A stretch of DNA of 13,872 nt from Competibacteraceae bacterium UBA2788 (GTDB lineage: Bacteria > Pseudomonadota > Gammaproteobacteria > Competibacterales > Competibacteraceae). Shown here piece after piece: positions 1-13,872 of this stretch. A program made the translations under genes and the position numbers. The notes under the pieces are model-generated. The model worked only from the letters and a program-made list of their open reading frames with translations, searched no databases and was not told where the DNA came from. Where the stretch lies: NCBI GenBank assembly GCA_002352185.1, contig DEHY01000103.1:1-13872 (forward strand). Direction: 5' to 3'. Each line of letters opens with the position of its first letter. Within the stretch, counting starts at the first letter, position 1.

Positions 1-1657
1 CGCGACCCAGGCCGGTGGTGCGGGTGGTCTCAAAACCTTGGGGTAATTCCGTGCGGCTCAGGGTTTGGCTGCCGCCCGCCGCGTTGGCGTCGCGTTGCAG
101 CCGGCCCAGGGCGTTGTAGGTGAAGTGCGCGGCTTGGCCCTTGGGATCGGTGAAGGCCGTGAGCAAGCCGTCAGGGGTATAGGCCATCGCATAGGCTTCA
201 CCCGCCGGGTTGGCGACACGGGCCAGGTAGCCATTGTCGTCCACACTCAGCAGGGTACGCTGTCCGAACGGGGCAACCAAGGCGGTCGGGTGGCCGGATG
301 GGTCGCGTTCGATGCGGAGGATGTTGCCGTCGCCGTCGGTGACGGTGGTCAACCGCCCGGCGCTGTCGTAGGCGAAGGTGTATACGACCGCTTGGGTGAG
401 GGTGTCTACGGTGCGCAGGTGGCGACCGTTGGCGTCAAAAGCATACAGGTGGCGACCGTCGCTGGAGGCAATGGCGAAATCCGCATTACCGACAAATCCG
501 GGCAGGTTGTTCGGGGCCACCTTGCGGATGCGGCTATTGTTCCGATCCGCGATCAGAACGCTGCCATCGGCAGCCACCGCCACGCCTGTGGGAAAAGAGA
601 GTCTCGCCTGGGTGGCCAGGCCGCCGTCGCCGCTGTATCCATTAGTCCCCGTGCCCGCGAACGTGGTAATAATTCCGTCCGGTCCTACTCGACGGATGCG
701 GTTTTCACTCGAAATCAGAACGCTGCCATCGGGGGCCACCGCTACGCCTGTGGGATAAGGGAGTCCCGCCTGTGTGGCCGGGCCGCCATCGCCGCTTGTA
801 TAACCGCTTTCACCACTGCCACATCCCCCCATACCCACCCACGACTTACCAGCGAAAGTACTAATGATCCCGTCCGGCCCCACCCGGCGAATGCGGTGAT
901 TGCTCATATCCGCGATCAGGGTGCTGCCATCCAAGGCGGCTACTACGCCAAAGGGTTGACAGAGTCCCGCCTGGATGGCGGGGCCGCCGTCGCCGCTGTA
1001 TCCAGGCCCCCCCGTACCGGCGAACGTGGTGATGATTCCATCCGGTCCTACCCGGCGGATTCCGGTATCACCACTTGTAATTAAGATGCTGCCATCCGGG
1101 GCTACCGCTATATCAAGGAGCGAATTGAGCCACGCTTCACCAGCGACGGTGGTGATGATCCCATCGGGACCGACCCGGCGGATGCGTCTATTGCCATCAT
1201 CTGCGATCAGGACGCTGCCATCGGGAGCGACCGCCACGCCTTCCGGGTAAAGGAGTCCCGCTTGGATGGCGGGGCCGCCGTCGCCGCTGAATCCTGCCGC
1301 GTCTGTCCCGGCGACGGTGGTGATCACCCGTCCGAATTGCTGACTCGGCTTTTGTTGCGCGCCATCGCCCCGATACAACACGTTGCCGAACGGGTCGTAG
1401 ACGTGGTGAGCATCCAGCGTCCACGTGCTCAAGCCGGCCCCGCCAACCTCGCGGAAATCCATTGCTGCACCCACTGTTACCGGATATGTCCGCGAGAGGG
1501 TAATTGCCTGCCGGGCAGGAGGAATATCGGCGATTGCCACCCCGGTCGGAACTGCGAAGCCGCTGCCCGGTGCCGGATTGTAGTAAATGCCGTCATAAAC
1601 GTAATCCAGCGTGACGCGGGCTGTTTGCACGCCGTGCAGCCCGCGACCGTAGACATC
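1..1657 (-). pseudogene. NHL-repeat and YD/Rhs-repeat C-terminal part of a giant secreted protein, cut off by an upstream TAG and by the window edge
   Basis: This stretch continues the reading frame of the gene at 1658-4888 directly after an in-frame TAG and stays open for 552 codons to the window edge. It begins DVYGRGLHGVQ, then DHVYDPFG-like text typical of Rhs/YD cores. Five NHL-type repeats follow (FSGDGGPA, GVAVAPDGSVLIAD, RIRRVGPDG; about 1327 to 512), then YD repeats (YTFAYDSAGRLTTVTDGDG, FTYNALGRL; about 390 to 1). NHL repeats form beta-propellers and YD repeats build the shell of Rhs/teneurin-like proteins, often ending in a toxin or adhesin tip; that end lies outside the window. 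The first in-frame ATG is at 1462 with no convincing ribosome site, so independent translation is doubtful. I see a once single gene split by one nonsense change. A sequencing error or real readthrough are the alternatives. Confidence 0.8.
512..1327 (-). repeat. Five NHL-type repeats
   Basis: Five tandem protein repeats, each with the frame ITT(V/F)AG, (G/F)YSGDGGPA(I/T)QA, GVAVAPDGSVLIAD, RIRRVGPDG. The matching DNA is strongly similar from unit to unit. Unit 2, read in transcription order, lacks the SGDGGPA half and is shorter (VAGEAWLNSLLDIAVAPDGS); unit 4 carries a glycine-rich insertion (GMGGCGSGESG). The repeats are expected to fold as blades of a beta-propeller. Confidence 0.8.
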
Positions 1658-1660
1658 CTA
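1658..1660 (-). other. In-frame TAG splitting the PKD-NHL-YD gene
   Basis: The frame reads TYTWDS-TAG-DVYGR. In related YD/Rhs-type proteins this motif usually reads like WDGKDAYGR, so the stop sits where a lysine (AAG) or similar codon is expected. One base change (AAG, CAG or GAG to TAG) explains it. The neighbouring PEP-CTERM gene and Uma2 copy 2 both end naturally in TAG, which argues against genome-wide amber recoding. Confidence 0.8.
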
Positions 1661-4600
1661 ACTGTCCCAAGTGTAGGTGATGACCTGATTGGGCTGGGCC
1701 GGGAAGTGCCCCAGATTGATGCCCCGTCCTGCGATGTCGATCTTGACGTCAATCCGCTTGAGGCTGGCGGGGATGCTCGCACCGCTGAGCGGAATGGTTA
1801 AGGTGCGCGCCGCTACCCGACCGGGGACGCGGCTGCTGCGATAGTTCAGCGAGAGACCGCTGCCCACCACGGGAATGCGCTCGCCTAGAGTCTGGTTTTC
1901 GCACTCGATGATGGACCCAGATGCACAATCCGGATCGTCGGGATTCTGGTTATCTCCGCTCTCGGGTTCTACGACCTTGGGCGGTTCTGCATCCCGGGGC
2001 GGGCCAGCCGGCCAATTGCAATCCCAGGTGGACAGATGGGTCAACCGCACCCGCCACAGACTCGCGCCCACCGGATACAGCCCCGCCAGTTGCGCCCGTT
2101 CTGCGTCGGTGACGCCCAGCGCGGCCGCGTCAGCGGGCGCGCCGCTGCCATTGACATCCAGTTGCGCCAGGCCGCCGCTGACGCTGAGAATCTTGACGAT
2201 CCGTCCGTTATTAATCGCTTTCCATGCGGCTTGAGTGTTGTCGTAATATCCGACCGGCACCTCGCCGCCGACCGGGAAGCTCAGGAAGTTGGTGACGTAG
2301 AACACCACCGGTTGATTGAAAATCACGTCCTGGCCGTTTTTCTTGATGGGGGCTTCGTCGGCGCTGAGTTCCACCGCGTAGGTGTAGGCGCTGGTCGGCG
2401 GCAACGGCGCGGGCATGGCCTGGGGGCCATTCGCACCCACGGTGTACTCGGTAAAGCGCAAGTTCAAGGTGGTGAGCGGCTGCGCGCCGCCATCCGGCAT
2501 GATCCGGGACGCTGTCGTGCCGGGCGGAATCAACAGCGCCGGCTGGCGAGTCCCATCCTGATCCGTGACCACGCTGCCCTGGGCCACCTGCATCGTCGTG
2601 GCGTGGGTCAAGTCGATGGAGGTGACTTTCGCATCCCTGGCGATCAGGATCACCTCCTCCAGCACCGCGAAATCCTGCCACGGCACGTTGATCTGCCGTT
2701 GCGCCGGCAGGTAGCCGCTGCGCTGATAATTCACGGTCAGATAGCCGCCGCCATTGACCGCCAGATCGAACATCCCATCGGCGCGGCTCAGGGTCTGACC
2801 GAATTCAGGATGATTCAGCACGGTGATGACCACCGCCGGCAGCGGAGCGTTGTTTCTGTCCCGCACCTGGCCGCGCAGCACCGCCGCCCGTTTCGGCTCA
2901 ATCGTGCCGGGCGCAACGCTGGTTTGAATCGGGTTGGCGCCGGTGTAAAGAAATTGGCTCGCGGCGTAATTCGAAGTAGCGACCGTGGCATCAACCGGTG
3001 GCGCCACCGTTTCGGGTGCGGGCGGCAGCGGCGGCAAATTTTCCTGCGTCACCTGAATGCTGAACGACTGGATGGCCCGTCCGCCTTGCCCATCGCTCAC
3101 TTCCACCGTGACCGGGACATCGCCCGCCGCCGTCGGCGTCCAGGCAATCAGGCCGCTGCTGGCCTGGATGCTCATGCCCGCCGACGCGGCGTTCAGGGCG
3201 TAACTCAGCGCATCGCCATCGGCGTCGGTGGCGTTCACATCGTAACCGTAGGGTTGTCCCACCGTGGCGGTTGTGACTGGTGATGAGGCAATCTGCGGGT
3301 TGCGGTTGGTCGGCGCCGGCGCGGTGACGGTGATCAGCACGGTATCGGGGAGGCTGGTCAATGTCCCATCGCTGATCATCAACTGCGCGATGTAGTCGCC
3401 GATTAAATCCGGGACCAGCGCGGCTTGGGCGCTGGTGGCGTTCTGCACCGCCGCCTGGCTCTGCGCCGGACGGGTGGTCAGCGCCCACTGGTACGTCAAT
3501 GGATCGCCGTCCGCATCGCGGGACGCCGCGCCGTCCAGCGTCACAGTCTGACCGGTGATCGCCGCCTGATCCGGCCCGGCGTTCGCCACCGGCTGGGAAT
3601 TCTCGGTCGAAATCGTCACCGTCGCGGGAGGGCTGGCGGCCTGGCCGTCGTTGACCATCACCTGCGCGACATAGGTTCCGGCCTTGTCGGCCACAAAACC
3701 CGGATGGACGGTCGTTGGATGGGTCAGCGTGGCGGCGCTGCCCACCGGCGTAGCCGTCAGCGCCCACTGGTAGGTCAGCGCATCGCCATCGGCGTCGCGG
3801 GAACCCGACCCGTCCAGCGTCACGGTCGCCCCAACCGTCACCGTTTGCGCCGGGCCGGCGTGGGCGACCGGCGGCGTGTTCGCGGTAGAAACGGTCACGC
3901 TGGCCGGGGCGCTGTCCACCGTTCCATCGTTAACAATGAGTTGCGCGGTGTAAGCACCCGGCTGATCCAGCGTCAGGGTCGGTTTCACCATAGCCGGATT
4001 GATCAGCGCCGCCGCGCTGGCGTCGGGCCGGGTCAGCAGCGTCCAGAGATAGGTCAGCGGGTTGCCGTCCACATCGGTCGAGGCGCTGCCGTCCAGCGTC
4101 ACGGTCGCACCGACGGGGGCGCGTTGCGCGGCTCCGGCATGGGCGACCGGCGGAGTATTCTCGGTGGAAATCGTCACCGTATCCGGGGCGCTGTCCACTG
4201 CGCCATCGCCGACCACCAGCCGCGCCTCATACGCGCCGGGCTTATCCAGCGTCAGGCGCGGATGGAGCGTCGTCGCATCCGCCAGCGTCGCCACGCTGCC
4301 GGCAGGCGCCGTCGGCAACGTCCACAGCGCGCTCAGTGCATCGCCATCCGGGTCGGTCGAAGCGCTGCCGTCCAGCGTGACCGTCGCGCCGACCCGCGCA
4401 CGCTGATCCGGCCCGGCGTTGGCCACCGGCGGCTTGTTGCCGGCCGCCCGCATCCCGAACACCTGCGGCGTGAAGGTAAACTGAACATTGCCCGGATTGC
4501 GAAAGCGCAGCACCACATTGGTCACGGTCGCGCCCGGGGCCAGGATGCCGGTCGGCAGCGGCACGGCCACATAGGGATGACCGTCGCCGGCGATTCCGGT

Positions 4601-4888
4601 CGGATTGTCCAGCGTTACGGCGGTGGGCGTAATCGCGATGATACGCAATTCCAGCGGCGCCAGAATCGGGTCGGGCGAAATATTGGTCAGGGTGGCGCCC
4701 GTATTGAAGGTCTGATTTGCCCGGTCGAAGCGCAACCCGGAAAACGTCACCTTGACCTGAGCGCTCACGTCGATGCTCGCCGTTCCGCTGGAACGCGCCC
4801 ATTCGCTCCATGCGCCCCATCCGCTCACGACCAGCGCCAATCCGAGCAGCCAACCGATCCCCTTCACCGACGAACGCATCAACGCCAT
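1658..4888 (-). CDS. Large exported PKD-domain protein, N-terminal part of a PKD-NHL-YD-repeat protein (ends at premature TAG)
   Basis: A 1076-residue product. Residues 1-30 hold a basic start (MRSSVK) and a hydrophobic stretch (GWLLGLALVVSGWG), a signal peptide or anchor. Residues 35-150 are an uncharacterised beta-rich region. Four PKD domains follow (about 153-242, 246-336, 338-428, 432-522), each with PPVA(N/H)AG, VTLDGSAS, DADGD and YTAQL-like motifs. A cadherin/putative-Ig domain lies at about 530-614 (TDADGDALSY, GLIAWTPT) and a carboxypeptidase-regulatory-like domain at about 668-750 (LRGQVRDRNNAPLPAVVITV). The last 120 residues are the conserved lead-in to YD-repeat shells (IIECENQTLGERIPVVGSG, LNYRSSR). 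The start is supported by GGGAG nine bases upstream of ATG. The product is probably cell-surface or secreted, in adhesion or contact-dependent interaction. The PEP-CTERM gene ends 57 bases upstream on the same strand, so the two may be co-transcribed. The stop is probably a nonsense mutation; the intact protein would exceed 1600 residues. Confidence 0.85.
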   Translation of the reverse strand: MALMRSSVKGIGWLLGLALVVSGWGAWSEWARSSGTASIDVSAQVKVTFSGLRFDRANQTFNTGATLTNISPDPILAPLELRIIAITPTAVTLDNPTGIAGDGHPYVAVPLPTGILAPGATVTNVVLRFRNPGNVQFTFTPQVFGMRAAGNKPPVANAGPDQRARVGATVTLDGSASTDPDGDALSALWTLPTAPAGSVATLADATTLHPRLTLDKPGAYEARLVVGDGAVDSAPDTVTISTENTPPVAHAGAAQRAPVGATVTLDGSASTDVDGNPLTYLWTLLTRPDASAAALINPAMVKPTLTLDQPGAYTAQLIVNDGTVDSAPASVTVSTANTPPVAHAGPAQTVTVGATVTLDGSGSRDADGDALTYQWALTATPVGSAATLTHPTTVHPGFVADKAGTYVAQVMVNDGQAASPPATVTISTENSQPVANAGPDQAAITGQTVTLDGAASRDADGDPLTYQWALTTRPAQSQAAVQNATSAQAALVPDLIGDYIAQLMISDGTLTSLPDTVLITVTAPAPTNRNPQIASSPVTTATVGQPYGYDVNATDADGDALSYALNAASAGMSIQASSGLIAWTPTAAGDVPVTVEVSDGQGGRAIQSFSIQVTQENLPPLPPAPETVAPPVDATVATSNYAASQFLYTGANPIQTSVAPGTIEPKRAAVLRGQVRDRNNAPLPAVVITVLNHPEFGQTLSRADGMFDLAVNGGGYLTVNYQRSGYLPAQRQINVPWQDFAVLEEVILIARDAKVTSIDLTHATTMQVAQGSVVTDQDGTRQPALLIPPGTTASRIMPDGGAQPLTTLNLRFTEYTVGANGPQAMPAPLPPTSAYTYAVELSADEAPIKKNGQDVIFNQPVVFYVTNFLSFPVGGEVPVGYYDNTQAAWKAINNGRIVKILSVSGGLAQLDVNGSGAPADAAALGVTDAERAQLAGLYPVGASLWRVRLTHLSTWDCNWPAGPPRDAEPPKVVEPESGDNQNPDDPDCASGSIIECENQTLGERIPVVGSGLSLNYRSSRVPGRVAARTLTIPLSGASIPASLKRIDVKIDIAGRGINLGHFPAQPNQVITYTWDS
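3323..4432 (-). repeat. Four tandem PKD-domain repeats (about 276-base period)
   Basis: Four consecutive PKD units of about 92 residues share VGATVTLDGSAS, DADGDALTYQW and NDGxxxSxPxTVTIST blocks. Similarity is visible at DNA level (for example repeated forms of 'ccgtccagcgtcacggtc'), so unequal recombination could change the number of domains. PKD arrays serve as stiff spacers in surface proteins. Confidence 0.8.
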
Positions 4889-4945
4889 GATTTTTATCTC
4901 CCAACCTACTCTTTTTATTTGTTCTTTAACGGCAGCGCGGTGAAC

Positions 4946-5629
4946 CTAAATCATCCGCCGCCCAGCCACCCAGCCGAGGATGCCCGCGCCGAATAGCCAC
5001 GCGGTGGACGGCAGCGGCACGGCCACTGCCGGCGTCACGATCCAGGTCACGCCGCTGCTGATCGGAGCGAAGATATGCAGATTGCCGCTGGGCGCGCCAT
5101 CCATGTCCACTGCAAACAGCGCATCCAGGCCAAGTGGATCCGTGGTGGCGAACAGCGGCGATAACGCGCTGTCCAGCAGGAAGAACGCGAATGAATCCGG
5201 GAGCAATGACCCCGACGCCCATTGCTCCGTCAGGTTCAGGGTGAAGCTCACCGTGGCGCCCAAGGTGAGTTCTTGCAGAAATTCGTTGAAGAACAGGGTA
5301 TCGGTCAGGGCAATGGGGAACGGGCCGGGCGGGCTGGGATGAGTCGCGAGGACGCCGCCAAGGCTGCTGCTATTTCCGAGCGTTCCGCTGGTGTAAAAGT
5401 CGCTGACAACGACCGTATTATTGCCCGCGATGCCGTCGTTGCCGATGAAATCGAAGGCCAAATTCGCTGCAACGCCCGACAGGACCGAGGTATCGAGCGT
5501 GACGTGCAGAAGGGTGGCGCGGGCGGGCGCGGGACTGGCCCATAAAAAAGCCGCCAACACGGCGGCGAAAACCGAAGATCGATAAAAAGAAGCTACATTT
5601 TTGTTACAATGGGGGGGGGTAGAAGTCAT
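4946..5629 (-). CDS. PEP-CTERM-sorted exported protein
   Basis: A 227-residue protein with a signal peptide (basic SFYRSS at 14-19, hydrophobic VFAAVLAAFLWA at 20-31, likely cleavage after PAPARA at residue 38). The C-terminus is VPLPSTAWLFGAGILGWVAG followed by RRMI: the proline-rich motif, membrane helix and basic tail of the PEP-CTERM (VPLPxxxWLFG variant) signal that exosortase recognises. The mature domain begins LLHVTLDTSVLSG and resembles a family of PEP-CTERM proteins of unknown function. Its natural partners are an exosortase and exopolysaccharide genes, none in the window. Codons 4-7 contain nine C in a row; one base more or less brings a stop within about 12 codons, which suggests on/off phase variation. 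A hairpin with six T follows in the leader region. The start is ATG with weak purine-rich GAAGAA upstream. It stops at TAG, 57 bases before the PKD gene. Confidence 0.85.
   Translation of the reverse strand: MTSTPPHCNKNVASFYRSSVFAAVLAAFLWASPAPARATLLHVTLDTSVLSGVAANLAFDFIGNDGIAGNNTVVVSDFYTSGTLGNSSSLGGVLATHPSPPGPFPIALTDTLFFNEFLQELTLGATVSFTLNLTEQWASGSLLPDSFAFFLLDSALSPLFATTDPLGLDALFAVDMDGAPSGNLHIFAPISSGVTWIVTPAVAVPLPSTAWLFGAGILGWVAGRRMI
5544..5566 (-). terminator. Terminator-like hairpin inside the signal-peptide coding region
   Basis: Read on the minus strand, GCCGCC, loop GTGTT, GGCGGC, followed at once by TTTTTT. This has the form of an intrinsic terminator (6 GC pairs, U6) but lies 63-85 bases after the ATG, encoding AAVLAAF. 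It may act as an attenuator when ribosomes are absent, or be a by-product of alanine codons. Confidence 0.35.
5611..5619 (-). repeat. Poly-C (G9 on the plus strand) tract at codons 4-7 of the PEP-CTERM gene
   Basis: Nine identical bases, 10 bases after the start codon. The frame reads ATG ACT TCT ACC CCC CCC CAT. Ten C would give CCA TTG TAA and eight C would give ATG TAG a few codons later, so only the present length (or lengths differing by three) allows the full protein. Homopolymers of this length are known slipped-strand sites, and also places where assemblies err. Confidence 0.6.
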
Positions 5630-5661
5630 TGCAATTCTTCTTCGTTATTGACTTGGTCCAA

Positions 5662-5689
5662 AGTATCGCCGCCCCTGAGAAAATTGCAA
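5662..5689 (-). promoter_or_regulatory. Candidate sigma-70 promoter for the PEP-CTERM gene
   Basis: On the minus strand TTGCAA (-35), 16 bases, GATACT (-10), with a start site expected about 25 bases before the ATG. It fits the intergenic position between the ligase gene and the PEP-CTERM gene. Each box matches consensus at only about four of six positions. Confidence 0.35.
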
Positions 5690-5753
5690 CAGGCCGGCTG
5701 AAAATGAGGGATCAAGGAAGATCGTGGGGCGGAAGGTTGCACTTCCACACGGA

Positions 5754-7409
5754 TCAGCCGCTCTGAAGCATCGTGGCGTACTGTTCGCGCATCGCTTTCT
5801 TGTTGAGCTTGCCGACGCTGGTTTTGGGGATGGCTTCGATAAACAGCACCCGGTCGGGAATGCCCCATCTGGAGATAACGCCCCGGTCGGCGAAGTCCTT
5901 GAGCCAGTCGCGGATCGTGGTTTCGTCCAATTCCCTTCCCGGTCGCAGCACCACCAGCGCCAGCGGCCGTTCGCCCCATTTCGGATCGGGAATGCCGACG
6001 ACCGCTGCTTCCGCCACCGCCGGATGTTTAAGGATCAAGTCTTCCAGTTCCAGCGACGAGATCCACTCGCCGCCGGTCTTGATCACGTCCTTCAGCCGGT
6101 CGGTGATCTTGAGATAGCCTTCAGCGTCAATCACGCCGATATCGCCGGTATGCAGATAGCCGCCGCGCCACAGGGCTGCGGAGGCCGCCGGATCCTTCAA
6201 ATAGCCCTGAGTCAGCCACGGTGTGCGCACCACCACCTCACCGGGCGTTTTGCCGTCGTGCGGCAAGTCGTTCATCGCATCATCCACCACCCGCAATTCA
6301 ACCATCGGGATCGGCAGGCCGGTCCTGCAACGGATTTCCAGTTGTTGCTCCTCATCCCAGTCCAGCATGTGCGGCTTGAGCTGGGCGAGGGTCAGAATCG
6401 GGCAGGTTTCCGACATGCCGTAGGCGGCGAAGATGTCCACGCCCCGGTCGCGGGCCTGTTTGGCCAGCGCTTGCGGCAATGCCGCGCCGCCGATGATGAC
6501 CTTCCAGCGCGACAGGTCGGTTTTATCCACCTGGGGGCTGGCGAGCAGCATTTGCAGAATGGTCGGCACACAGTGGGAGAAGGTGGCGTTTTCCCGCTGG
6601 ATCAGTTGCAGCAAATGTTCCGGCACATAACGCCCCGGATAGACCTGCTTAACACCCAGAACGGTGGCGACATAGGGGACGCCCCAGGCGTGGACGTGAA
6701 ACATCGGGGTAATGGGCAGGTAAACGTCGTTGCGGTTGAAGCGGCCTTGCCCCGTGCCCGTCAGCGCCGAAAGCACGCCAAAGGTGTGCAGCACCAGTTG
6801 CCGGTGGCTGAAATATACCCCCTTGGGCAGGCCGGTGGTGCCGGTGGTGTAGAAGGTGGTGGCGCGGGCGTCTTCGGAAAAGTCCGGGAATCGGTAGTCT
6901 GGATCGCCGGCGGCCAGAAGATCTTCATATTCGGCATCAATGTTGAGCCGGGTCGCCGGCGTCTGGCCGGTATCATCCAGCAGCACCAGTTTTTTCACCG
7001 GCTCGATGCGGTCGCGGATCGCCTCCAGAATCGGCAGAAACTCGGTGTTGACCAGAACTACATCGTCCTCGGCGTGATTGATGGTGTAGAGAATCTGCTC
7101 CGGGGACAGCCGGATGTTAATGGTATGCAGCACTGCGCCCAGCATGGGCACGGCAAAGAAACACTCCAGATAGCGATGGCTGTCCCAATCCATCACCGCC
7201 ACCGTGTCACCCGGTCTGACGCCGAGTCCCGTCAGACCGCTGGCCAGACGGCCAATGCGTTCGCGGGTTTCCCGGTAGCTCTGGCGCTTGAAATCGCCAT
7301 AGACAATTTCCTGGTCGGGAAACTGGCGCACCGGGTTATCCAGCAGGGTTTTGATCAGCAACGGATAGCCATAAGCGGCAGGGGCGCGTTCGATGGTTTT
7401 TACGGACAT
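5754..7409 (-). CDS. Long/medium-chain fatty acyl-CoA synthetase (AMP-binding, AlkK/FadD type)
   Basis: A 551-residue member of the adenylate-forming family. It should activate a fatty acid with ATP to acyl-AMP and pass it to CoA, feeding beta-oxidation or lipid synthesis from the cytoplasm or inner membrane face. Motifs in order: the ATP-binding loop TFYTTGTTGLPKG at about 185-197, PMFHVHAWG at 235-243, the adenine-binding YGMSETCP at 330-337, TGD at 421-423, the hinge DRLKDVIKTGGEWIS at 437-451, and the catalytic lysine in PKTSVGKLNKK (K534). All are intact, and the length matches AlkK-like medium-chain ligases (about 546 residues), the closest type I recognise. AGGAG stands 10-11 bases before the ATG. 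It follows Uma2 copy 1 by 51 bases on the same strand. Exact chain-length preference cannot be read from the sequence. Confidence 0.92.
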   Translation of the reverse strand: MSVKTIERAPAAYGYPLLIKTLLDNPVRQFPDQEIVYGDFKRQSYRETRERIGRLASGLTGLGVRPGDTVAVMDWDSHRYLECFFAVPMLGAVLHTINIRLSPEQILYTINHAEDDVVLVNTEFLPILEAIRDRIEPVKKLVLLDDTGQTPATRLNIDAEYEDLLAAGDPDYRFPDFSEDARATTFYTTGTTGLPKGVYFSHRQLVLHTFGVLSALTGTGQGRFNRNDVYLPITPMFHVHAWGVPYVATVLGVKQVYPGRYVPEHLLQLIQRENATFSHCVPTILQMLLASPQVDKTDLSRWKVIIGGAALPQALAKQARDRGVDIFAAYGMSETCPILTLAQLKPHMLDWDEEQQLEIRCRTGLPIPMVELRVVDDAMNDLPHDGKTPGEVVVRTPWLTQGYLKDPAASAALWRGGYLHTGDIGVIDAEGYLKITDRLKDVIKTGGEWISSLELEDLILKHPAVAEAAVVGIPDPKWGERPLALVVLRPGRELDETTIRDWLKDFADRGVISRWGIPDRVLFIEAIPKTSVGKLNKKAMREQYATMLQSG

Positions 7410-7460
7410 TGTCGTTGGACTCCTCGCAGGGTTGCGATGGTGGGTGGATTTTCAACCGGC

Positions 7461-8123
7461 TTACAGATCGTTGGGATCGATGCCCATGGCCCGTAACCGC
7501 TCGGCCAGCCGTTCGGCGCGCTGCTCCAGTTCGAGGAAGGTTTCAAAGCGCCGCCCATCAGGCCGATACAGCACCAGATCAGTTCCCAGCAACGTGAAAC
7601 GCACACTCAGGCGTGGGCTGATCCAGCCTTCCATGCGCTGCACGCTTTCCAACCGGCCATTCCGTCGGATCGAACCATCCAGTTCGCCTCGATCCGGGTC
7701 GTAGATGTAGTACTCCTCGACCCCATAGCGGTCGTAAAACTGAAATTTGCGGACCATCTCGGCCAGGGTGTTGCCGGGCGACAGCACCTCGAACACCACC
7801 TGCGGGGCCAGGCCGCCTTCCCGCCATTGCCTGTAGGAACCCCGGTCGCCCGGTGGCCGCCCAAACACCACCATCACATCGGGCGCGGCCCGAATAGTGT
7901 TGTCGCCCTCCACCGGATACCACAGCAGATCACCGGCGACGAACACGTTGGGATCATGGGCGAACAGCGCGGCGATGCCGCCTTGAATCATCACGATATA
8001 GCGGAACTGCCGGGTGTTGTCGGCCATGGGTTGTCCATCGCTGTCGGGATAAACCAGTTCGGCAAGCGGGTCTGGCCGGCGCGCCGGCGCGAGCGGAGGA
8101 TTCAGGATCGCAGTCGCATGCAT
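7461..8123 (-). CDS. Uma2-family putative endonuclease (DUF820), copy 1
   Basis: A 220-residue protein of the Uma2/DUF820 family, whose members adopt a PD-(D/E)XK nuclease-like fold but have no settled physiological role. Visible are PDVMVVFG (presumed metal-binding D82), APQVVFEVLSPGNT (E112), MVRKFQFY (K126) and GVEEYYIYDPDRG (133-146), so the presumed active site is complete. A short charged C-terminal helix (LELEQRAERLAERLRAMG) ends the protein. CGGAG seven bases before the ATG supports the start. It lies 53 bases after thrC and 51 before the acyl-CoA ligase on the same strand. It is a close paralogue of the gene at 9671-10411 (about 85% identical by eye over 180 residues), and the pair flanks thrC as direct repeats. 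Confidence 0.88.
   Translation of the reverse strand: MHATAILNPPLAPARRPDPLAELVYPDSDGQPMADNTRQFRYIVMIQGGIAALFAHDPNVFVAGDLLWYPVEGDNTIRAAPDVMVVFGRPPGDRGSYRQWREGGLAPQVVFEVLSPGNTLAEMVRKFQFYDRYGVEEYYIYDPDRGELDGSIRRNGRLESVQRMEGWISPRLSVRFTLLGTDLVLYRPDGRRFETFLELEQRAERLAERLRAMGIDPNDL
7512..8051 (-). repeat. 540-base paralogous direct repeat (Uma2 copy 1 core)
   Basis: From the YPDSDG motif to LEQRAE this segment aligns without gaps to 9785-10324: both are 540 bases in the same orientation. Long blocks are identical or nearly so in DNA. Recombination between the two copies would delete about 2.3 kb, including thrC. Confidence 0.75.
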
Positions 8124-8176
8124 GGGTAATCTCCGAGGTTCAGCCTTTGCCTGATTTCAGTGTAGTCGCGCCGGAT

Positions 8177-9586
8177 TCAACCCGCGTGCCGGGCGATGTA
8201 GTTCTTCATTGCAGCCACATCCGCATCCATCACCTCAAAGCGTTGCGGCAGCGCCTCGATATTTTCGTAACCCGTGGGGCGCTCCGGCGGGCGGCCCAGC
8301 GCTTCAACAATGGATTCCTCGAATTTGGCGGGCAGCGCAGTTTCCAGACAGAGCAGCGGTACGCCATCCTCGCGGTGTTCCAGCCCAACCTTCACGCCGT
8401 CGGCGGTGTGGGTGTCAATGACGATGCCGCTGTCCTGATGAATTCGGCGGATCGTGTCCATGCGGTTCTGATGGGTGCTGGCCCCGGAGACGAAGCCGGA
8501 TGCCCTGACCGCGTGGAAAGCCGCGCTGCCGGACAGATCGAAGAATCCCCGTGCGTCTACTTGTCGCCACAGTTCCCGAACCACTGCCGGATCGCGCCCT
8601 GCTGCGTCGAAAATGAAGCGCTCGAAGTTGGACGCCTTGGAAATATCCATCGAGGGGCTGCTGGTTTGCGCCACCTGATCCGTTGGGCGCACCCGGTAGA
8701 CGCCGGTGCGAAAGAACTCGTCGAGGACGTTGTTTTCGTTGGTCGCCAGAATCAGCCGGCGGATCGGCAGGCCCATGCGTTTGGCGATGTAACCGGCGCA
8801 GATGTTGCCAAAATTGCCGGACGGCACGGCAAACGAGACTTCCTGATCGTCGCGTGCGGTCACGGCCAGCCAGCCTTTGAAGTAGTAGACGATTTGCGCC
8901 GCAACCCGCGCCCAGTTGATCGAATTGACGGTGCCGATGGCGTAACGCGCCTTGAAGTCGGCGTCCTGGCTGACCGCCTTGACCAGATCCTGACAGTCGT
9001 CGAACACGCCGCGCACCGCAAGGTTGAAGATGTTGGGGTCTTGCAGCGAGAACATCTGCGCGGTCTGAAACCGGCTCATCTTCCGGTGCGGCGAGAGCAT
9101 GAACACCCGGATGTTGCGCTTGCCGCGCATGGCGTATTCGGCGCTGGAGCCGGTGTCGCCGGAAGTTGCGCCAAAGATGTTGAGATGGCCGCCGGTTTTG
9201 AGCAGCGTGTACTCGAACAGATTGCCGAGCAACTGCATGGCGATGTCCTTGAACGCCAGCGTCGGGCCGTTTGACAGCCCCAGCAACCAGACGCCGTCAG
9301 CCAGCGGAGTCAGCGGGGTGATCGCTTCGCTGCGGAAAATTGCGGCGGTGTAGGTTTTATCCATCAGCGCCCGCAAGTCATCGGCAGGCAGATCGTCAGC
9401 GAACTTGCGCAGAATGGCGAACGCCAGTTCCGGGTAGGACAATCCGCGCCACCCCGACAGTTCGCCGGGGGCCAGCGTCGGGTAGGCGTCCGGGATCGTC
9501 AGGCCGCCGTCGGGGGCCAATCCGCCCAGCAGAATGTCGGAGAAGGGGGCCGGGGCCATGCCGCCCCGGGTGCTGATGTAGCGCAT
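8177..9586 (-). CDS. thrC: Threonine synthase
   Basis: A 469-residue PLP enzyme that turns O-phosphohomoserine into threonine and phosphate, the last step of threonine synthesis. The N-terminus MRYISTRGG and the PLP-lysine motif TLAFKDIAMQLLG (K113) are those of the larger bacterial ThrC group, and 469 residues is the usual length in pseudomonads. Further family segments are FGATSGDTGSSAEYAM (138-152) and the phosphate-binding VPSGNFGNICAGY (254-266). The start at 9586 is chosen over an upstream ATG at 9655 because AAGGA lies nine bases before it and family homology begins there. TACAAT at 9639-9644 (minus strand) may be a -10 box, but no good -35 is visible. hom and thrB are not adjacent; instead Uma2 genes lie on either side. 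Confidence 0.95.
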   Translation of the reverse strand: MRYISTRGGMAPAPFSDILLGGLAPDGGLTIPDAYPTLAPGELSGWRGLSYPELAFAILRKFADDLPADDLRALMDKTYTAAIFRSEAITPLTPLADGVWLLGLSNGPTLAFKDIAMQLLGNLFEYTLLKTGGHLNIFGATSGDTGSSAEYAMRGKRNIRVFMLSPHRKMSRFQTAQMFSLQDPNIFNLAVRGVFDDCQDLVKAVSQDADFKARYAIGTVNSINWARVAAQIVYYFKGWLAVTARDDQEVSFAVPSGNFGNICAGYIAKRMGLPIRRLILATNENNVLDEFFRTGVYRVRPTDQVAQTSSPSMDISKASNFERFIFDAAGRDPAVVRELWRQVDARGFFDLSGSAAFHAVRASGFVSGASTHQNRMDTIRRIHQDSGIVIDTHTADGVKVGLEHREDGVPLLCLETALPAKFEESIVEALGRPPERPTGYENIEALPQRFEVMDADVAAMKNYIARHAG

Positions 9587-9595
9587 GTTGGAGAG

Positions 9596-9600
9596 TCCTT
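9596..9600 (-). promoter_or_regulatory. Ribosome binding site fixing the thrC start
   Basis: AAGGA on the minus strand, nine bases upstream of the ATG at 9586. It favours this start over the in-frame ATG at 9655, whose extra 23 residues show no family similarity. Confidence 0.65.
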
Positions 9601-9670
9601 GGGAAGCGTGAAGGTTCGACCGGGGTGAATGCGTCGTTATTGTACCTTTGCACACGTCCGAAGGCGTCGG

Positions 9671-10411
9671 CTACAGGGAGTCGGGTTCAATACCCAGCGC
9701 ACGCAATTGTTCGGCCAGCCGCTCAGCGCGTTGCCGCTCGGTCTCGGCGCGTTGGCGTTCAGTCTCGGCGCGCTGGCGCTCGATCTCGGCGCGCTGTTCC
9801 AGTTCGAGAAAGGTCTCGAACCGCCGCCCGTCTGGCCGGTATAGCACCAGGTCGAGACCTTCCAGGGTGAAACGTATCCCCAGGCGCGGGCTGATCCAGC
9901 CTTCCATGGCGGGCACTTTCTCCAGGCGACCTTCCCGGCGCAGCCATCCATTGAGCGTGCCCCGATCCGGATCATAGACGTAGTATTCTTCGACGCCGTA
10001 GCGCTCGTAGAAATGGAATTTGCGGGTCATTTCGGCGGTGGTGTTGCCGGGCGACAGCACCTCAAACGCCACCTGCGGGGCCAGACCGTCTTCCCGCCAT
10101 TGCATGTATGAACCCCGGTCGCCCGGTGGCCGCCCGAACACCACCATCGTATCGGGCGCGGCCCGAATCTTGTTGTCGCCTTCCACTGGATACCAGAGCA
10201 GATCGCCAGCGACAAAGACGTTGGGGTTGTTGGCGAACAGCGCGGCGATGCCGCCCTGGATAGTCACGATGTAGGTGAACTGCCGGGTGTTGTCGGCCAT
10301 GGGTTTGCCGTCGCTGTCGGGATAGACAACCTCGGTGGGTGGAGTGCGGTTGGGCGCAGCGCCGGTGTGGATGGGCGAAGCGAGTGGCGGAGTAGTGGCG
10401 GTGGCGGGCAT
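9671..10411 (-). CDS. Uma2-family putative endonuclease (DUF820), copy 2 with expanded coiled coil
   Basis: A 246-residue paralogue of the gene at 7461-8123, with the same presumed catalytic positions (PD at 86-87, E117 in FEVLSPGNT, K131 in MTRKFHFY). After LEQRAE it carries a perfectly periodic insertion of 21 residues, based on ERQRAET, before the shared RLAEQLRALG end; copy 1 has none. The start at 10411 is supported by GGGAG seven bases upstream and by alignment to copy 1. The frame stays open upstream to 10792, but that part has no family similarity and would overlap the NACHT gene. It stops at TAG 84 bases before thrC. Uma2 genes are often found in many copies per genome; nothing here shows transposase or terminal repeats. 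Confidence 0.88.
   Translation of the reverse strand: MPATATTPPLASPIHTGAAPNRTPPTEVVYPDSDGKPMADNTRQFTYIVTIQGGIAALFANNPNVFVAGDLLWYPVEGDNKIRAAPDTMVVFGRPPGDRGSYMQWREDGLAPQVAFEVLSPGNTTAEMTRKFHFYERYGVEEYYVYDPDRGTLNGWLRREGRLEKVPAMEGWISPRLGIRFTLEGLDLVLYRPDGRRFETFLELEQRAEIERQRAETERQRAETERQRAERLAEQLRALGIEPDSL
9727..9789 (-). repeat. Three tandem 21-base repeats encoding ERQRAET heptads
   Basis: Three head-to-tail units of 21 bases (plus strand cgcgttgccgctcggtctcg and variants) start at 9727, 9748 and 9769. Each encodes one heptad of a charged coiled coil. The 63 bases account exactly for the length difference from Uma2 copy 1 in this region. Confidence 0.85.
9785..10324 (-). repeat. 540-base paralogous direct repeat (Uma2 copy 2 core)
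   Basis: Gap-free partner of 7512-8051, same orientation, running from YPDSDG to LEQRAE. Confidence 0.75.
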
Positions 10412-10556
10412 GTCGGCTCTCCCGGTTTTCAACCTTGACTTGATGCTGAGGATAACACTTCCCGGCGTTTGGCCGGGCGTGCGGGCGAGTTGGAGGTTAG
10501 GGTCGATTTCTTTCAATCGTTCCGGGGGGAATCCATAATCTTTGGGCTGGCTGGAT

Positions 10557-10586
10557 CGGCAGTGGTGTTTATCGTGGTCACTGCCG
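10557..10586. repeat. Inverted repeat upstream of the NACHT-FGE gene (possible operator or hairpin)
   Basis: CGGCAGTG at 10557-10564 and its exact reverse complement CACTGCCG at 10579-10586, with 14 bases between them that contain GTGGT-like direct repeats. The centre lies about 108 bases before the GTG start. Size and symmetry suit a dimeric repressor site, but there is no regulator gene nearby. Confidence 0.35.
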
Positions 10587-10665
10587 GGTGATGTCGGCGT
10601 GCGGGGAGATTTGCTGCGCAAAGCCGTGCGGCGACGATGATCCATACATTGCTTCTCGTAAATTT

Positions 10666-10670
10666 GGAGG
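10666..10670 (+). promoter_or_regulatory. Ribosome binding site fixing a GTG start for the NACHT-FGE gene
   Basis: GGAGG, nine bases before the GTG at 10680. The next in-frame ATG (10710) has no such site, so GTG is preferred. Confidence 0.75.
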
Positions 10671-10679
10671 AACCCGACT

Positions 10680-12782
10680 GTGTTAACGGAAGCGCTCACT
10701 TTTATTTCGATGGACTGGATCAAGCCGCTTGCAAAAAAGCTGAAGGGAATCCGGGATGAGAGAATCAATGAAATCAACAGGATCGCTGACACATTCGGCG
10801 ACCCAAGGCCGCTGGCGCGCTATTACGTCGAGCCCAAATGCCAGCACTACAATCCGGCTGATCACCATGAGGATGAAGAGCCTATTACGTCTGTGAAAAT
10901 GCCGATATTTATGTACATCAATGGTTTTCTTAGCAAGGAGGTAGCTACACGGGACGGACGCACTCAAATGTTTATCCTAGCCGACGCCGGCATGGGAAAA
11001 ACCTCCCTCCTGGTGATGCTCAAGCTGACTCATCTCCTGGCGTTCTGGCCGCAAGGTTACGATTGCCTGCTGTTGAAACTCGGTACTGACACCCTGGAAA
11101 TGGTCCGCAAGCACACGAACAAGGCGAACACCGTGCTGCTTCTCGACGCCTTGGATGAAGACCCGAATGCTTGGGGTAATATCGAGCAGCGGCTTATTGA
11201 GTTACTGCACGAAACCGGCAACTTTCGTCGCGTCCTCATCTCATGCCGCACACAGTTCTTTCCTGAAACGGGGGCCGATCCGTTTGGAAACTCCGGTCGA
11301 GTCACCGTGGGCGGTTTCATTTGTCCGGTGATCTTTCTTTCGCTCTTCGATGATCTTCAGGTACACGACTATCTGTGCAAGCGTTTTCCCGATCCCTGGC
11401 ACTACGAGCTGACGGGAAGAAAGAACAAACAGCGGCTTCGTGCCGAGAAACTCCTCAAGTCCATGCGTTCCCTGCGCTTTAGGCCGCTGCTCCTGGCGTA
11501 CATCAAGGACCTGCTGGATGCTGACCGGTCGCAGTGGGATGAGTACGCCATTTATGATGCGCTCACGGAAACGTGGTTGCTGCGGGAGGTGGGCAAGCTG
11601 GCAAAACAAGGAATCAGGCTGACAAAAGAAGACCTCTGGATAAGCTGTACTGCGGTCGCGGTTTACCTGCAATCGCTTGGGAAGCGCGTGTTATCTCAGG
11701 CCGAACTTCGGAGTCTGGTGGTTGGGCTGCCGGTTATCGCTCATATCGAAAAGCTCGATTTCGGCGGGCGTTCGCTGATGAACCGCACTTCGAATCGCGA
11801 ATATCGGTTTTCCCATTACAGCACCCAGGAATTTCTGGTGGTTCACGCCATTGTTGAGAGGCAATTGGAAGCTGTAAAGAGGATTTGCCCGGCGGCGACC
11901 CGGGAAGTAAAGCTTCGAGCCACAGTGCAGATGCTGGATTTTGCGCGTTGCCGTTTTGCCGGGACTGATAGGCTGGAATTTCTGAAGTTGCTGGATTGGA
12001 GCGACATCAATCCCAGCCAATTCGCTGGATGGCTCCGCTTTCAGGAACATCTGCGGGATGGCAGCGAAGGCCCGGAGATGGTAATGATTCCCGGTGGCCG
12101 CTTCCTGATGGGTTCGCCGCCGGACGAACCGGAACGACGAGATAACGAACGCCAGCACGAAGTCAAAGTAGCGTCGTTCACGCTGGGCAAGTACGCCGTG
12201 ACCTTTGGGGAATATGACCGCTTTGCCAGCGCGAACCGGCGCGAGAAGCCGAAGGATGAAGGCTGGGGTCGTGAGCGGTGCCCGGTGATCAACATCACCT
12301 GGTTCGACGCGATGGCCTATGCGGAGTGGCTATCGCAGCAGACCGGTCAGCAGTACCGTTTACCGACGGAGGCCGAATGGGAGTATGCCTGTCGAGCAGG
12401 AACGGCAACGCCATTTTATTTTGGTGAAACGATCAGTACCGATCAAGCTAACTACGATGGCAATTACACCTATGGCGGGGGACAAAAAGGCGGGTATCAG
12501 GGAAAGACCGTCGAGGTCGGCCAGTTTCCAGCCAATGCCTGGGGTCTGCATGAGATGCACGGCAATGTCTGGGAATGGATTGGCTCGGAATACAATGGAG
12601 ACTATGGTGGCGCCGAATTGTGTACTGTTGGCGACTCTAATTCCGGCGGTCCCCGGGTGTTGCGGGGCGGTTCGTGGCTCTACGGACCGAAGTGGCTGCG
12701 ATCGGCCGCACGCATCGGGTTCGACCCGCGCATCCGGGACTACAACGTGGGCTTCCGTCTCGCCAGGACCTTAACCCTTTGA
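10680..12782 (+). CDS. NACHT NTPase fused to FGE-sulfatase/C-type-lectin-like domain; probable DGR variable protein
   Basis: A 700-residue two-part protein. The N-terminal half is a NACHT/STAND NTPase: Walker A ADAGMGKTS (101-109), Walker B VLLLDALDED (152-161), a conserved SCR after the next strand (188-190), and the winged-helix motif FSHYSTQEFL (377-386). The C-terminal half (about 463-696) is an FGE-sulfatase/C-type-lectin fold: EMVMIPGGRFLMGS (466-479), LPTEAEWEYACRAG (561-574), GLHEMHGNVWEW (622-633), RVLRGGSW (659-666), GFRLAR (691-696). The paired cysteines of true formylglycine-generating enzymes after RGGSW are absent, so it is a binding rather than catalytic module. Its last segment has the form of a DGR variable region, and a partial avd gene follows. 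By analogy with STAND immune proteins, ligand binding at the lectin domain could trigger NTP-driven oligomerisation; no separate effector domain is seen. The start is GTG with GGAGG. Confidence 0.9.
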   Translation: MLTEALTFISMDWIKPLAKKLKGIRDERINEINRIADTFGDPRPLARYYVEPKCQHYNPADHHEDEEPITSVKMPIFMYINGFLSKEVATRDGRTQMFILADAGMGKTSLLVMLKLTHLLAFWPQGYDCLLLKLGTDTLEMVRKHTNKANTVLLLDALDEDPNAWGNIEQRLIELLHETGNFRRVLISCRTQFFPETGADPFGNSGRVTVGGFICPVIFLSLFDDLQVHDYLCKRFPDPWHYELTGRKNKQRLRAEKLLKSMRSLRFRPLLLAYIKDLLDADRSQWDEYAIYDALTETWLLREVGKLAKQGIRLTKEDLWISCTAVAVYLQSLGKRVLSQAELRSLVVGLPVIAHIEKLDFGGRSLMNRTSNREYRFSHYSTQEFLVVHAIVERQLEAVKRICPAATREVKLRATVQMLDFARCRFAGTDRLEFLKLLDWSDINPSQFAGWLRFQEHLRDGSEGPEMVMIPGGRFLMGSPPDEPERRDNERQHEVKVASFTLGKYAVTFGEYDRFASANRREKPKDEGWGRERCPVINITWFDAMAYAEWLSQQTGQQYRLPTEAEWEYACRAGTATPFYFGETISTDQANYDGNYTYGGGQKGGYQGKTVEVGQFPANAWGLHEMHGNVWEWIGSEYNGDYGGAELCTVGDSNSGGPRVLRGGSWLYGPKWLRSAARIGFDPRIRDYNVGFRLARTLTL
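12663..12767 (+). other. Probable DGR variable region (VR) in the lectin-like domain
   Basis: Residues 662-696 (RGGSW to GFRLAR) match the place where DGR target proteins of the FGE/C-type-lectin kind are diversified. Between the fixed anchors, the positions that are Asn-rich (AAC) in template repeats of this class are here L667 CTC, Y668 TAC, I679 ATC, F681 TTC, D682 GAC, R684 CGC, I685 ATC, D687 GAC, Y688 TAC and N689 AAC. All end in C, as expected if adenines of AAC codons were replaced at random. Fixed codons (RGGSW, LRSA, P683, R686, VGFRLA) lie between them. No template repeat was found in the window to prove it. Confidence 0.7.
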
Positions 12783-12808
12783 CCTTTATACTTTTTCCAT
12801 TTTCGGGG

Positions 12809-12842
12809 GTCCAGGGGGCAAAGCCCCCTGGGCGTTTTTTTT
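12809..12842 (+). terminator. Strong hairpin plus T8 between the variable region and avd (terminator and/or DGR cruciform)
   Basis: CCAGGGGGC (12811-12819), loop AAA, GCCCCCTGG (12823-12831), extendable by G-T and G-C pairs to 12809/12833, then GCG region and eight T (12835-12842). It has the form of an intrinsic terminator for the NACHT-FGE gene. DGRs are also known to need a hairpin/cruciform shortly downstream of the variable region for efficient retrohoming; this one starts about 42 bases after the probable VR end. Confidence 0.8.
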
Positions 12843-12854
12843 GGCGGGTGGGGG

Positions 12855-13241
12855 ATGGACGAGAAAACCGATGATCGAACGCCGCACGCCGTGCAAGCCT
12901 GCCACGAACTGCTGGCCTGGCTGATTCCGCTGCTCGACCAGTTTCCGCGCTCGCGCCGGTTCACGCTGGGGGAACGGCTGGAAACCGGCTTGCTCGTCGT
13001 GCTGGAGGCGCTGGTGGAAGCCGCCTACAGCCGCGACAAGCGTGCGGCGCTGACCCGCGCCAACCTCCGGCTGGCGGTAGACTTCAAGTCAAATGCCGCA
13101 AGGCATCCATGCGTTCGTGTAGGATGCGAACGACGTAAACCGTCAGCGCGGTTTCCTCGATCCGATAGAAAACCAAGTGCCTCCCGACCGGATAGACCAT
13201 CATCCCGTGTTTGGGACGGCCCGCCTGCGGATTTTCGGTGA
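12855..13241 (+). pseudogene. avd: Truncated DGR accessory protein Avd (four-helix bundle), only the N-terminal ~74 residues kept
   Basis: The first 74 residues (12855-13076) are clear Avd: LLAWLIPLLDQFPRSRRFTLG, then ETGLLVVLEALVEAAYSRDK and LTRANLRLAV. Avd is the basic pentameric four-helix-bundle partner of the DGR reverse transcriptase, needed for mutagenic cDNA synthesis. Full-length Avd is about 115-125 residues; the C-terminal helices (the usual LLSLRQYE...GRMLGGW-like part) are missing. From residue 75 the frame runs into the antisense of the ParE-like gene and ends at 13241 in arginine/proline-rich nonsense. ATG at 12855 follows a G-rich GGTGGGGG. Position, strand and order (target gene, hairpin, avd) are standard for DGRs; the template repeat and reverse transcriptase expected next are absent. 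It is unlikely to be functional. Confidence 0.82.
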
Positions 13242-13383
13242 TGGCCTTCAGTGCGCCGTCGAGCGTGCGCCGGTACTCGGCAAGCTGCCCTTCCCCCCAT
13301 GTTTGCAGCGTGAATGACAAAATGTCGCAAAAATCCCGCCGTGCGGGTTCGCTCAACTCGATCCGGAATTTAGAGGCAGACAT
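13084..13383 (-). CDS. ParE/RelE-superfamily toxin
   Basis: A 99-residue protein of the ParE/RelE type II toxin superfamily. Family marks are LSEPARRDFCDILSFTLQTWG in the N-terminal helical hairpin, ENPQAGRPK, YPVGRHLVFYRIEE and VVRILHERMD near the C-terminus. ParE members poison DNA gyrase, RelE members cut mRNA at the ribosome; the RILHERMD ending favours ParE. It overlaps the upstream antitoxin gene by 14 bases on the same strand, the usual translational coupling. Its stop codon lies within a few bases of the point where the avd reading frame from the other side loses homology, so the toxin-antitoxin unit marks one edge of the rearrangement. Confidence 0.87.
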   Translation of the reverse strand: MSASKFRIELSEPARRDFCDILSFTLQTWGEGQLAEYRRTLDGALKAITENPQAGRPKHGMMVYPVGRHLVFYRIEETALTVYVVRILHERMDALRHLT

Positions 13384-13654
13384 CGGGATTCGGCTTTCTG
13401 CCCTCGGCAGCGTGTTGCCGGGCGTCTTGTTCGATCCGGTCGAGCAGCCCCGGCGTGTAGGGGGCCGTGCGGCCTTCCCGGATGGCTCGCTCGCCTACAT
13501 CCAGCGCCGCCATGAGGCGAGCGTGTTTGCTGTCATCCTGCTCCCGCAAGCGGCGCACGGCATCGCGCACCAGTTCGGCGGCGTTGCTGTAGAAACCCTC
13601 GGCGATCTTGGCCTTGATGTAGCTTTCATCCACGGATGGAAAGTTGATATTCAT
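13370..13654 (-). CDS. ParD-like antitoxin (CC2985-type)
   Basis: A 94-residue antitoxin. The N-terminal half (residues 1-40, with SVDESYIKAKIAEGFYSNAA then ELVRDAVRRL) is a ribbon-helix-helix DNA-binding domain of the ParD kind; the rest is charged and helical and should wrap the toxin. It precedes and overlaps the ParE-like gene, the common ParD-ParE order, and should repress its own promoter. A good -10 (TATACT, 13692-13697) lies just upstream. No strong Shine-Dalgarno site is seen before the ATG. Confidence 0.87.
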   Translation of the reverse strand: MNINFPSVDESYIKAKIAEGFYSNAAELVRDAVRRLREQDDSKHARLMAALDVGERAIREGRTAPYTPGLLDRIEQDARQHAAEGRKPNPDVCL

Positions 13655-13720
13655 GGCGCGTACTCGTTTTATGTGCGAAATATGGGTGTAAAGTATACAT
13701 CATCCCGCTCATGGAAGAGA
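13655..13720 (-). promoter_or_regulatory. Probable promoter/operator of the ParDE-like pair
   Basis: On the minus strand TATACT (13692-13697) is an almost perfect -10 box, about 37 bases before the antitoxin ATG, and overlaps the palindrome GTATAC. No clear -35 box stands at 17 bases. Autoregulation by ParD binding here is expected from the family. Confidence 0.4.
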
Positions 13721-13752
13721 ACGCGGGCTGGAAGCCTACGCCACAGATACCC

Positions 13753-13872
13753 TCAGCCCTTCGCCTTTGCCATCTCCGCCATGATCAACTGCGTCCACGC
13801 CCCGGAGCCGGGCAAATTCTGGCCGCCGTCGGCGACCACCAGCGTCCCGGTGATGTAGGACGCCAGCGGCGA
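13753..13872 (-). CDS. Short-chain dehydrogenase/reductase, C-terminal 39 residues (partial at window edge)
   Basis: The frame open at the right edge ends at TGA (13753-13755). It contains SPLASYITGTLVVADGGQNL, the highly conserved C-terminal strand and DGG turn of SDR-family NAD(P)H oxidoreductases, followed by a short tail with MAEMAKAKG. The nucleotide-binding and catalytic (YxxxK) parts are outside the window. Substrate cannot be told; the tail recalls SDRs of acyclic terpene or fatty acid metabolism, but only weakly. It is transcribed toward the ParDE-like pair and separated from it by 98 bases. Confidence 0.8.
   Translation of the reverse strand, partial: SPLASYITGTLVVADGGQNLPGSGAWTQLIMAEMAKAKG

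Follow-up and report, generated by a model that had tools for sequence, protein, structure and literature searches.

According to Dore et al. (2024, PMC10907252), NACHT/nSTAND-CLec proteins serve as DGR targets in Thiohalocapsa, where degenerate loci, with the reverse transcriptase (RT) or the template repeat (TR) replaced by MITE-like arrays, occur alongside complete ones; for aggregates, such sensors are proposed there as shared immunity. The names Competibacter and Contendobacter and words starting with toxin are absent from the main text of that paper. Passages of PMC7159879 describe, in ternary conflict systems, FGE domains that are linked to DGRs. A literature search for a DGR in Competibacter, with most subscription papers and preprints outside its scope, matched work on Bdellovibrio instead. 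The locus described here is a further case of what is already in print, degenerate loci of DGRs and DGR targets of the NACHT-lectin type, and adds another bacterial family to those with NLR-like sensors rewritten by DGRs.

The window, that is the whole stretch of 13,872 nt analysed here, covers positions 1 to 13,872 (forward strand) of contig DEHY01000103.1 in the assembly of Competibacteraceae bacterium UBA2788 (GCA_002352185.1), which is 91% complete and consists of 234 contigs. An uninterrupted gene of 700 codons (10680..12782, + strand; alternative start ATG at 10710) encodes a NACHT-FGE protein with a NACHT/STAND-like NTPase part (codons 1-450, 10680..12029, +) and an FGE domain of the C-type-lectin fold (12069..12767, +). 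On its left lie the threonine synthase gene thrC (8177..9655, -; PF14821, 9.1e-26) and, between thrC and this target gene, a Uma2-domain ORF (9671..10792, -; PF05685, 3.3e-16, residues 189-302), whose long 5' extension is doubtful and overlaps the start of the target. This ORF and a second Uma2 gene (7461-8123) flank thrC and are 84% identical over 186 residues. The right flank is formed by the 3' end of an SDR gene (13762..13872, -), which runs past the window and was assigned to its family by a homologue at locus L074 of the relative G036. At gathering thresholds, Rfam gave no match within the window. We consider it very probable that this is the fossil target of a DGR, a STAND sensor that was once hypermutable and is now fixed, with its gene still intact.

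Template-adenine substitutions in the variable repeat

The FGE domain ends in a DGR variable repeat (VR; 12644..12767, +), 124 bases that match the TRs of relatives (83% to the L074 TR, 81% to the L075 TR); the nearest TR found is L074:4922-5045. Codons 662-696 (12663-12767) read RGGSW...LRSA...VGFRLAR, exactly the anchors on which an earlier note, made from the letters of this DNA, had based its claim of a DGR variable region. Within the VR, the diversified core spans codons 667-689 and holds 14 template-adenine codons (12678..12746, +). It is followed by an adenine-poor 3' end common to TRs (VGFRLAR; 12747..12767, +), which by its position is probably IMH-like.

The note had counted about ten NNC codons at template AAC positions; the pattern was borne out, but the number is eight to nine. 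AAC stands in the L074 TR at codons 667, 668, 679, 681, 685, 687, 688, and 689, where the window has CTC, TAC, ATC, TTC, ATC, GAC, TAC, and AAC, so that seven of the eight are changed; at codon 682 the window has GAC where the second template (L075) has AAC. Three AGG codons of the L074 TR (to TGG, GGG, and CGG) and one GAA (to GGA) are also altered at template adenines. Overall, the window VR differs from the L074 TR at 14 of 26 adenines versus 7 of 98 other bases (Fisher, p = 4.8e-7), and from the L075 TR at 14/26 adenines versus 9/98 other bases (p = 2.7e-6). As a control, the FGE sequence just upstream (336-362 aligned bases) was compared in the same way, and the adenine bias was absent in all four comparisons (p = 0.45-0.98). 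Six of the seven non-adenine differences from the L074 TR are silent and the seventh (V661L) lies outside the core; they could stem from a lost TR that was not quite the same, rather than from drift.

The same bias was observed in relatives, where the copy counts of VRs and TRs are minimum values (best four candidates per genome scored). The VRs of L074 itself differ from their TR at 11 and 15 of the 26 adenines and at none of the 98 other bases, and the bias against this TR was found in all 11 VRs in register besides that of the window (p from 1e-12 to 6e-3). The L075a VR is changed at 16/26 adenines versus 13/98 other bases against the L074 TR and at 15/26 versus 4/98 against the L075 TR; for the L080 VR the values are 13/26 versus 14/98 and 12/26 versus 7/98, respectively. 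The L075b VR, which has a 1-base deletion, was excluded from the test.

Variation at the NNC codons, which the note had wished to see compared between strains, was assessed between homologues, and it peaked where predicted. In a set of 12 homologous proteins, 65-83% identical to that of the window (the first 12 rows of a 57-row alignment), mean pairwise diversity was 0.82 at the 14 template-adenine codons, 0.36 in the FGE body, 0.22 in codons 1-450, and 0.13 in the other 27 VR codons, and the template-adenine codons were more diverse than the FGE body (p = 8e-9). Codon 690 was variable too (0.91), although it is an adenine codon in neither of the TRs used. On the sequence evidence we regard it as confirmed that the window VR is genuinely a DGR variable region and belongs to a NACHT-FGE sensor, because templates exist in relatives and variation is concentrated at template-adenine codons.

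An ordinary FGE domain with normal divergence, carrying its NNC codons by chance, is a most improbable explanation. Similar RGGSW...GFR endings on other FGE genes of the genome would fit it, but it is already contradicted by the adenine test and the homologue diversity: the substitutions are adenine-specific with four of four controls negative, TR, RT, and Avd are present in relatives, and an Avd fragment adjoins the target. The substitution pattern shows instead that mutagenic retrohoming from an L074-like TR rewrote, at template adenines, the face with which the FGE lectin domain binds.

Missing machinery and an inherited scar

In the ancestor, a complete DGR (NACHT-FGE target, Avd, RT, and TR) would have been sited between thrC and the SDR gene. 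The Avd gene fragment that the earlier note had placed next to the target is real: it matches NCBIfam NF033474 (E = 2.7e-13) at model positions 4-66 of 104, below the curated cut-off because the fragment is truncated. It comprises the 5' part of avd (12855..13082, +), cut after residue 81 of 124 in L074 Avd numbering; the match stops at base 13082, within 2 bp of the end of parE at 13084 (junction 13082..13084). There follow the toxin gene parE (13084..13383, -; PF05016, 1.5e-16) and the antitoxin gene parD (13370..13654, -; PF03693, 2.2e-6; TIGR02606, 1.7e-11, 44.0 bits versus a cut-off of 46.2). Past ParDE lie SDR and FAD-oxidoreductase genes, which in L074 are found downstream of target 2, and the right-flank genes of the window recur in L074, L082, and L085.

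The assembly is a draft in 234 contigs with runs of N on the same contig past the window, and an assembly chimera at the Avd-ParDE junction, hiding a complete locus, would be conceivable; it is nevertheless extremely unlikely, as two metagenome proteins share the junction yet differ from the window at 12-15% of residues. P0121 and P0122 are identical to the window at 89/101 and 86/101 residues, respectively, and at 22/26 and 20/26 past the junction, across which both read into the same antisense-ParE residues. The scar was therefore inherited and predates the split of those lineages. Three other metagenome proteins (P0124, P0125, and P0127, on contigs reaching 22,718 bases) share another Avd truncation, ending VRSKISIxRHRRIRLL... 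and distinct from the scar of the window. In another family (L236, G234:C269), Avd is broken near residue 82 and a TR is retained nearby, with no space between for an RT.

In the own assembly, we found no RVT_1 match, no relative of the L074 RT, and no second Avd besides the single truncated copy. The L074 TR matched at length only the VR itself (all 13 candidates scored), the next-best match being 31 bp inside an FGE paralogue, and a search with the window VR gave no TR among the best 40 of 81 candidates. The second-best match to the VR in the latter search, 33 bp long (C77:932-964, 85%), lies in sequence devoid of the VR anchors, and we attribute it to chance. The proposed search for a template and an RT thus came out empty in the own 91%-complete assembly, while near-copy TRs and an RT were found in relatives. 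From a complete DGR, the assembly shows the adenine-specific VR and the hairpin, but not the TR, the RT, or a full Avd. That the sensor is still evolvable by retrohoming, as had been suggested, is not supported for this genome, in which searches yielded no RT, no TR, and no remainder of Avd; the truncation of Avd is shared by other lineages as well.

A target-site hairpin (12811..12831, +) with a 9-bp stem and a 3-base loop begins 44 bases past the VR end, at the usual offset. Its motif is shared with relatives and occurs after 13 of 18 VRs and after none of five TRs; L080, a 14th VR, is without hairpin. The loop is AAA in the window, versus GAA (11) or GGA (1) in the 12 other VRs with a hairpin. 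The altered loop is suggestive of a dead machine in the window, although a single change is not proof.

Since the assembly is 91% complete, a trans-acting RT and TR could be missing from it, and the DGR might still be active, with both elements elsewhere in the genome acting on the window VR. The VR and the slightly altered hairpin persist, as this would predict, and in Thiohalocapsa degenerate loci stand beside complete ones (main text of PMC10907252); still, we consider activity in trans unlikely, given an assembly of 234 contigs that yielded no RVT_1 domain, RT relative, TR, or second Avd and a hairpin loop that departs from those of the 12 other VRs with a hairpin. We favor the fossil DGR target, in which RT, TR, and the 3' end portion of avd were lost later, with the ParDE pair now at the break, barring an RT or TR in the unassembled tenth. 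The private non-adenine states of the window VR number two among 16 sequences, both silent and no more than those of L075a, a VR of an intact locus; the loss is therefore not datable from the VR.

Fates of the site and decay across the family

Complete DGR loci (target, Avd, RT, and TR) were found in the relatives G036 and G007. In G036, L074 holds a first TIR-FGE target (2015-3424), Avd (3483-3857), RT (3854 to about 4888; RVT_1, 4.1e-18), the TR, and a second TIR-FGE target (5368-6955) that is broken by a run of N. A zeta-toxin-like gene (L074:891-1526; PF06414, 1.4e-8) lies upstream of this complete DGR.

The gene thrC lies on the left in the window, L082, L083, and L097, while the L074 stretch taken does not include it, L083 stops before SDR, and L085 shows the right side only. 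G029 (Candidatus Competibacter phosphatis; L083:2553-5236, also L097) has a single TIR-FGE target, whose upstream flank is that of L074 target 1 (87%) and whose body and downstream flank are those of target 2 (94%). Such a mosaic would result if the DGR core had been lost through recombination of one target with the other; the reverse order of events would also be possible. L097, used to name the G029 locus, was the one place taken from a contig scan that listed 80 of 570 confirmed places, mostly distant FGE genes. In G005 (L082:2985-4239), a lone second target has a shortened TIR end, and post-TR sequence is joined to the target-1 upstream flank. Recombination into a single target was dropped as an explanation for L082; the sequence points to a scar left by a deletion, the second target being shortened at its N-terminus. 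In G022 (L085), on a contig that begins inside the target, an FGE target is accompanied by a remnant of the RT, about nine codons long, and a PIN/Phd pair, with no Avd. One chromosomal site thereby gives a before-and-after series: complete DGR, recombinant single target, shortened target, and two toxin-antitoxin scars. Separately, 2,987 bases of DGR locus are 100% identical between L089 (G028:C141) and L227 (G001:C477), which belong to two different genera, reflecting recent transfer or cross-binning.

Among the 39 family genomes searched, nine decayed Avd/RT cores have their break inside a contig (G000:C219, G022:C179, G005:C176, G025:C61, G004:C29, G004:C24, G018:C33, G035:C227, and G008:C223); G022 was added by eye, and at G035 only the near side of the break can be seen. 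G031:C302 and G001:C477, cut only by contig ends, were left out. The RT is full length at five loci of the close RT clade (G036:C397, G007:C49, G007:C26, G013:C333, and G028:C141). In a class-level search, Avd was detected in nine of 369 genomes including the own, the genomes being drawn evenly and not as a census.

Toxin-antitoxin pairs of four kinds adjoin four of the nine breaks: ParE/ParD (window 13084-13654), PIN/Phd (L085:706-1376), DUF433/DUF5615 (L228:2762-3308), and an AbrB-like protein with PIN (L223:4742-5412), the antitoxin of the last scoring below the Pfam cut-off (19.2 versus 24.7 bits). We take DUF433/DUF5615, as well as UPF0175/DUF3368, to be toxin-antitoxin pairs. In tests devised after the pattern was noticed, the chance of at least three of nine breaks with PIN or ParE within 1 kb was 2.5e-5 (from PIN and ParE counts per genome), and that of at least four of nine with any pair was 1.9e-5 at an assumed three-fold or 1.3e-4 at an assumed five-fold density of all pairs. 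Without G022, two of eight breaks have PIN or ParE (P = 1.1e-3) and three of eight have any pair (P = 3.6e-4 at three-fold, 1.6e-3 at five-fold density).

At the intact G028 locus, a pair of a fifth kind, UPF0175/DUF3368 (L089:1880-2607), follows the TR, which weakens the idea that such pairs are replacements of the RT. With one of five intact DGRs having an adjoining pair, the pairs may therefore be neighbors, not replacements. The other four full-length loci showed no pair in the visible stretch (two reach contig ends within about 0.8 kb), and by eye none of seven other lone VR loci (L079, L081, L082, L083, L087, L090, and L091) has a pair abutting; HicB/HicA-like ORFs lie about 1.3 kb further on at L090. 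It can safely be stated that toxin-antitoxin pairs often neighbor these DGR cores, whether the core is dead or intact. Directly after the DGR and pair of L089 lies a caspase-domain gene (L089:2763-3998; PF00656, 3e-38).

Repeated decay of DGRs in this family, with pairs at four of nine scars, was less expected than the target type or the degenerate loci. As a tentative and rather doubtful generalization, Competibacteraceae might recurrently turn hypermutable immune-type sensors into fixed ones, the core being deleted by several routes, the sensor often kept, and toxin-antitoxin pairs standing at breaks, either because deletions into a pair would be counter-selected or because an incoming pair would seal the site. 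If true, receptors would recurrently have passed from an adaptive to an innate type.

The target protein compared with known systems

The probable NACHT part of the target had no Pfam match, and its NCBIfam NACHT match is weak (EruA, E = 2.1e-4, 19.5 bits versus a cut-off of 1000). In the alignment of 57 sequences, which omits P0010 and P0011, whose C-termini lack a full VR, a Walker-A-like stretch (A103 G104 M105 G106 K107) and D156/D159 are invariant; the P0001 cluster consists of three sequences on three contigs. Residues 19-436 of the predicted model align to NLRC4, NLR entries being only rows 48-50 of the 50 listed. Compared with three homologues, dN/dS was 0.11-0.17 for codons 1-450 and 2.2-4.4 at the VR adenine codons. 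The gene is constrained outside the VR, although most of the time measured predates the loss of the DGR. Because it stayed an intact gene, the target is most likely a fixed STAND receptor. By analogy with STAND receptors, and judging by architecture, a ligand on the lectin face would cause the NACHT part to assemble in an NTPase-dependent manner and then to recruit an effector encoded elsewhere. Detection of phage or of self versus non-self, which the earlier note had put forward, would be one possible role.

At the shared site the N-terminal part differs, being NACHT in the window (10680-12029) and TIR in relatives (L074:2015-2464); by its sequence, this is apparently a swap of domains, the VR-bearing C-terminus being common to both. 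In PADLOC, ThsB-type TIR models match the L074 TIR-FGE target (4.9e-23). FGE domains occur at six places in the own genome, where neither C42 nor one of the C172 genes has the VR pattern at its C-terminus. Two FGE-domain genes are neighbors on C172 (L033/L034, G000:C172:13159-16032); one runs into an assembly gap, and the readable one has no VR pattern.

Competibacter-type bacteria inhabit dense wastewater granules. Such granules are the kind of aggregate for which shared-immunity sensors were proposed in PMC10907252. With the before-and-after series at one site, whether a hypermutable receptor is worth keeping after loss of its mutator becomes a testable question.

The domain is unlike formylglycine-generating enzyme (SUMF1) and PvdO: where human FGE has its cysteine-bearing stretch, MCHRSYC, the window has LYGPKW, inside the VR. 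The catalytic pair of the human enzyme is presumably Cys336/Cys341. As in a DGR target, the FGE/CLec domain carries the VR at its C-terminus; it differs from Treponema denticola TvpA, a DGR variable protein of solved structure (2y3c), in being fused to a NACHT part. In architecture, a STAND NTPase followed by a C-terminal sensor, the protein resembles antiviral STAND (Avs) and bacterial NACHT defence proteins; unlike these, it has no recognized effector domain, N-terminal or other, its sensor is a lectin domain, and it matches none of the PADLOC families, an absent profile being compatible with a defence function. The closest likeness in the main text of PMC10907252 is to Thiohalocapsa PB-PSB1, whose DGR 3 and 6 (clade 5D) likewise have NACHT fused to a C-terminal, VR-bearing lectin domain, and whose DGR 3, like the window target, is without an identified adapter or effector domain. 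Two targets per locus, as in PB-PSB1 DGRs, are seen in the complete relative L074, and degenerate loci that lost RT or TR are common to both. Unlike PB-PSB1 as described there, the own genome of the window yielded no complete DGR, and the break adjoins a toxin-antitoxin pair instead of transposons or MITE-like arrays.
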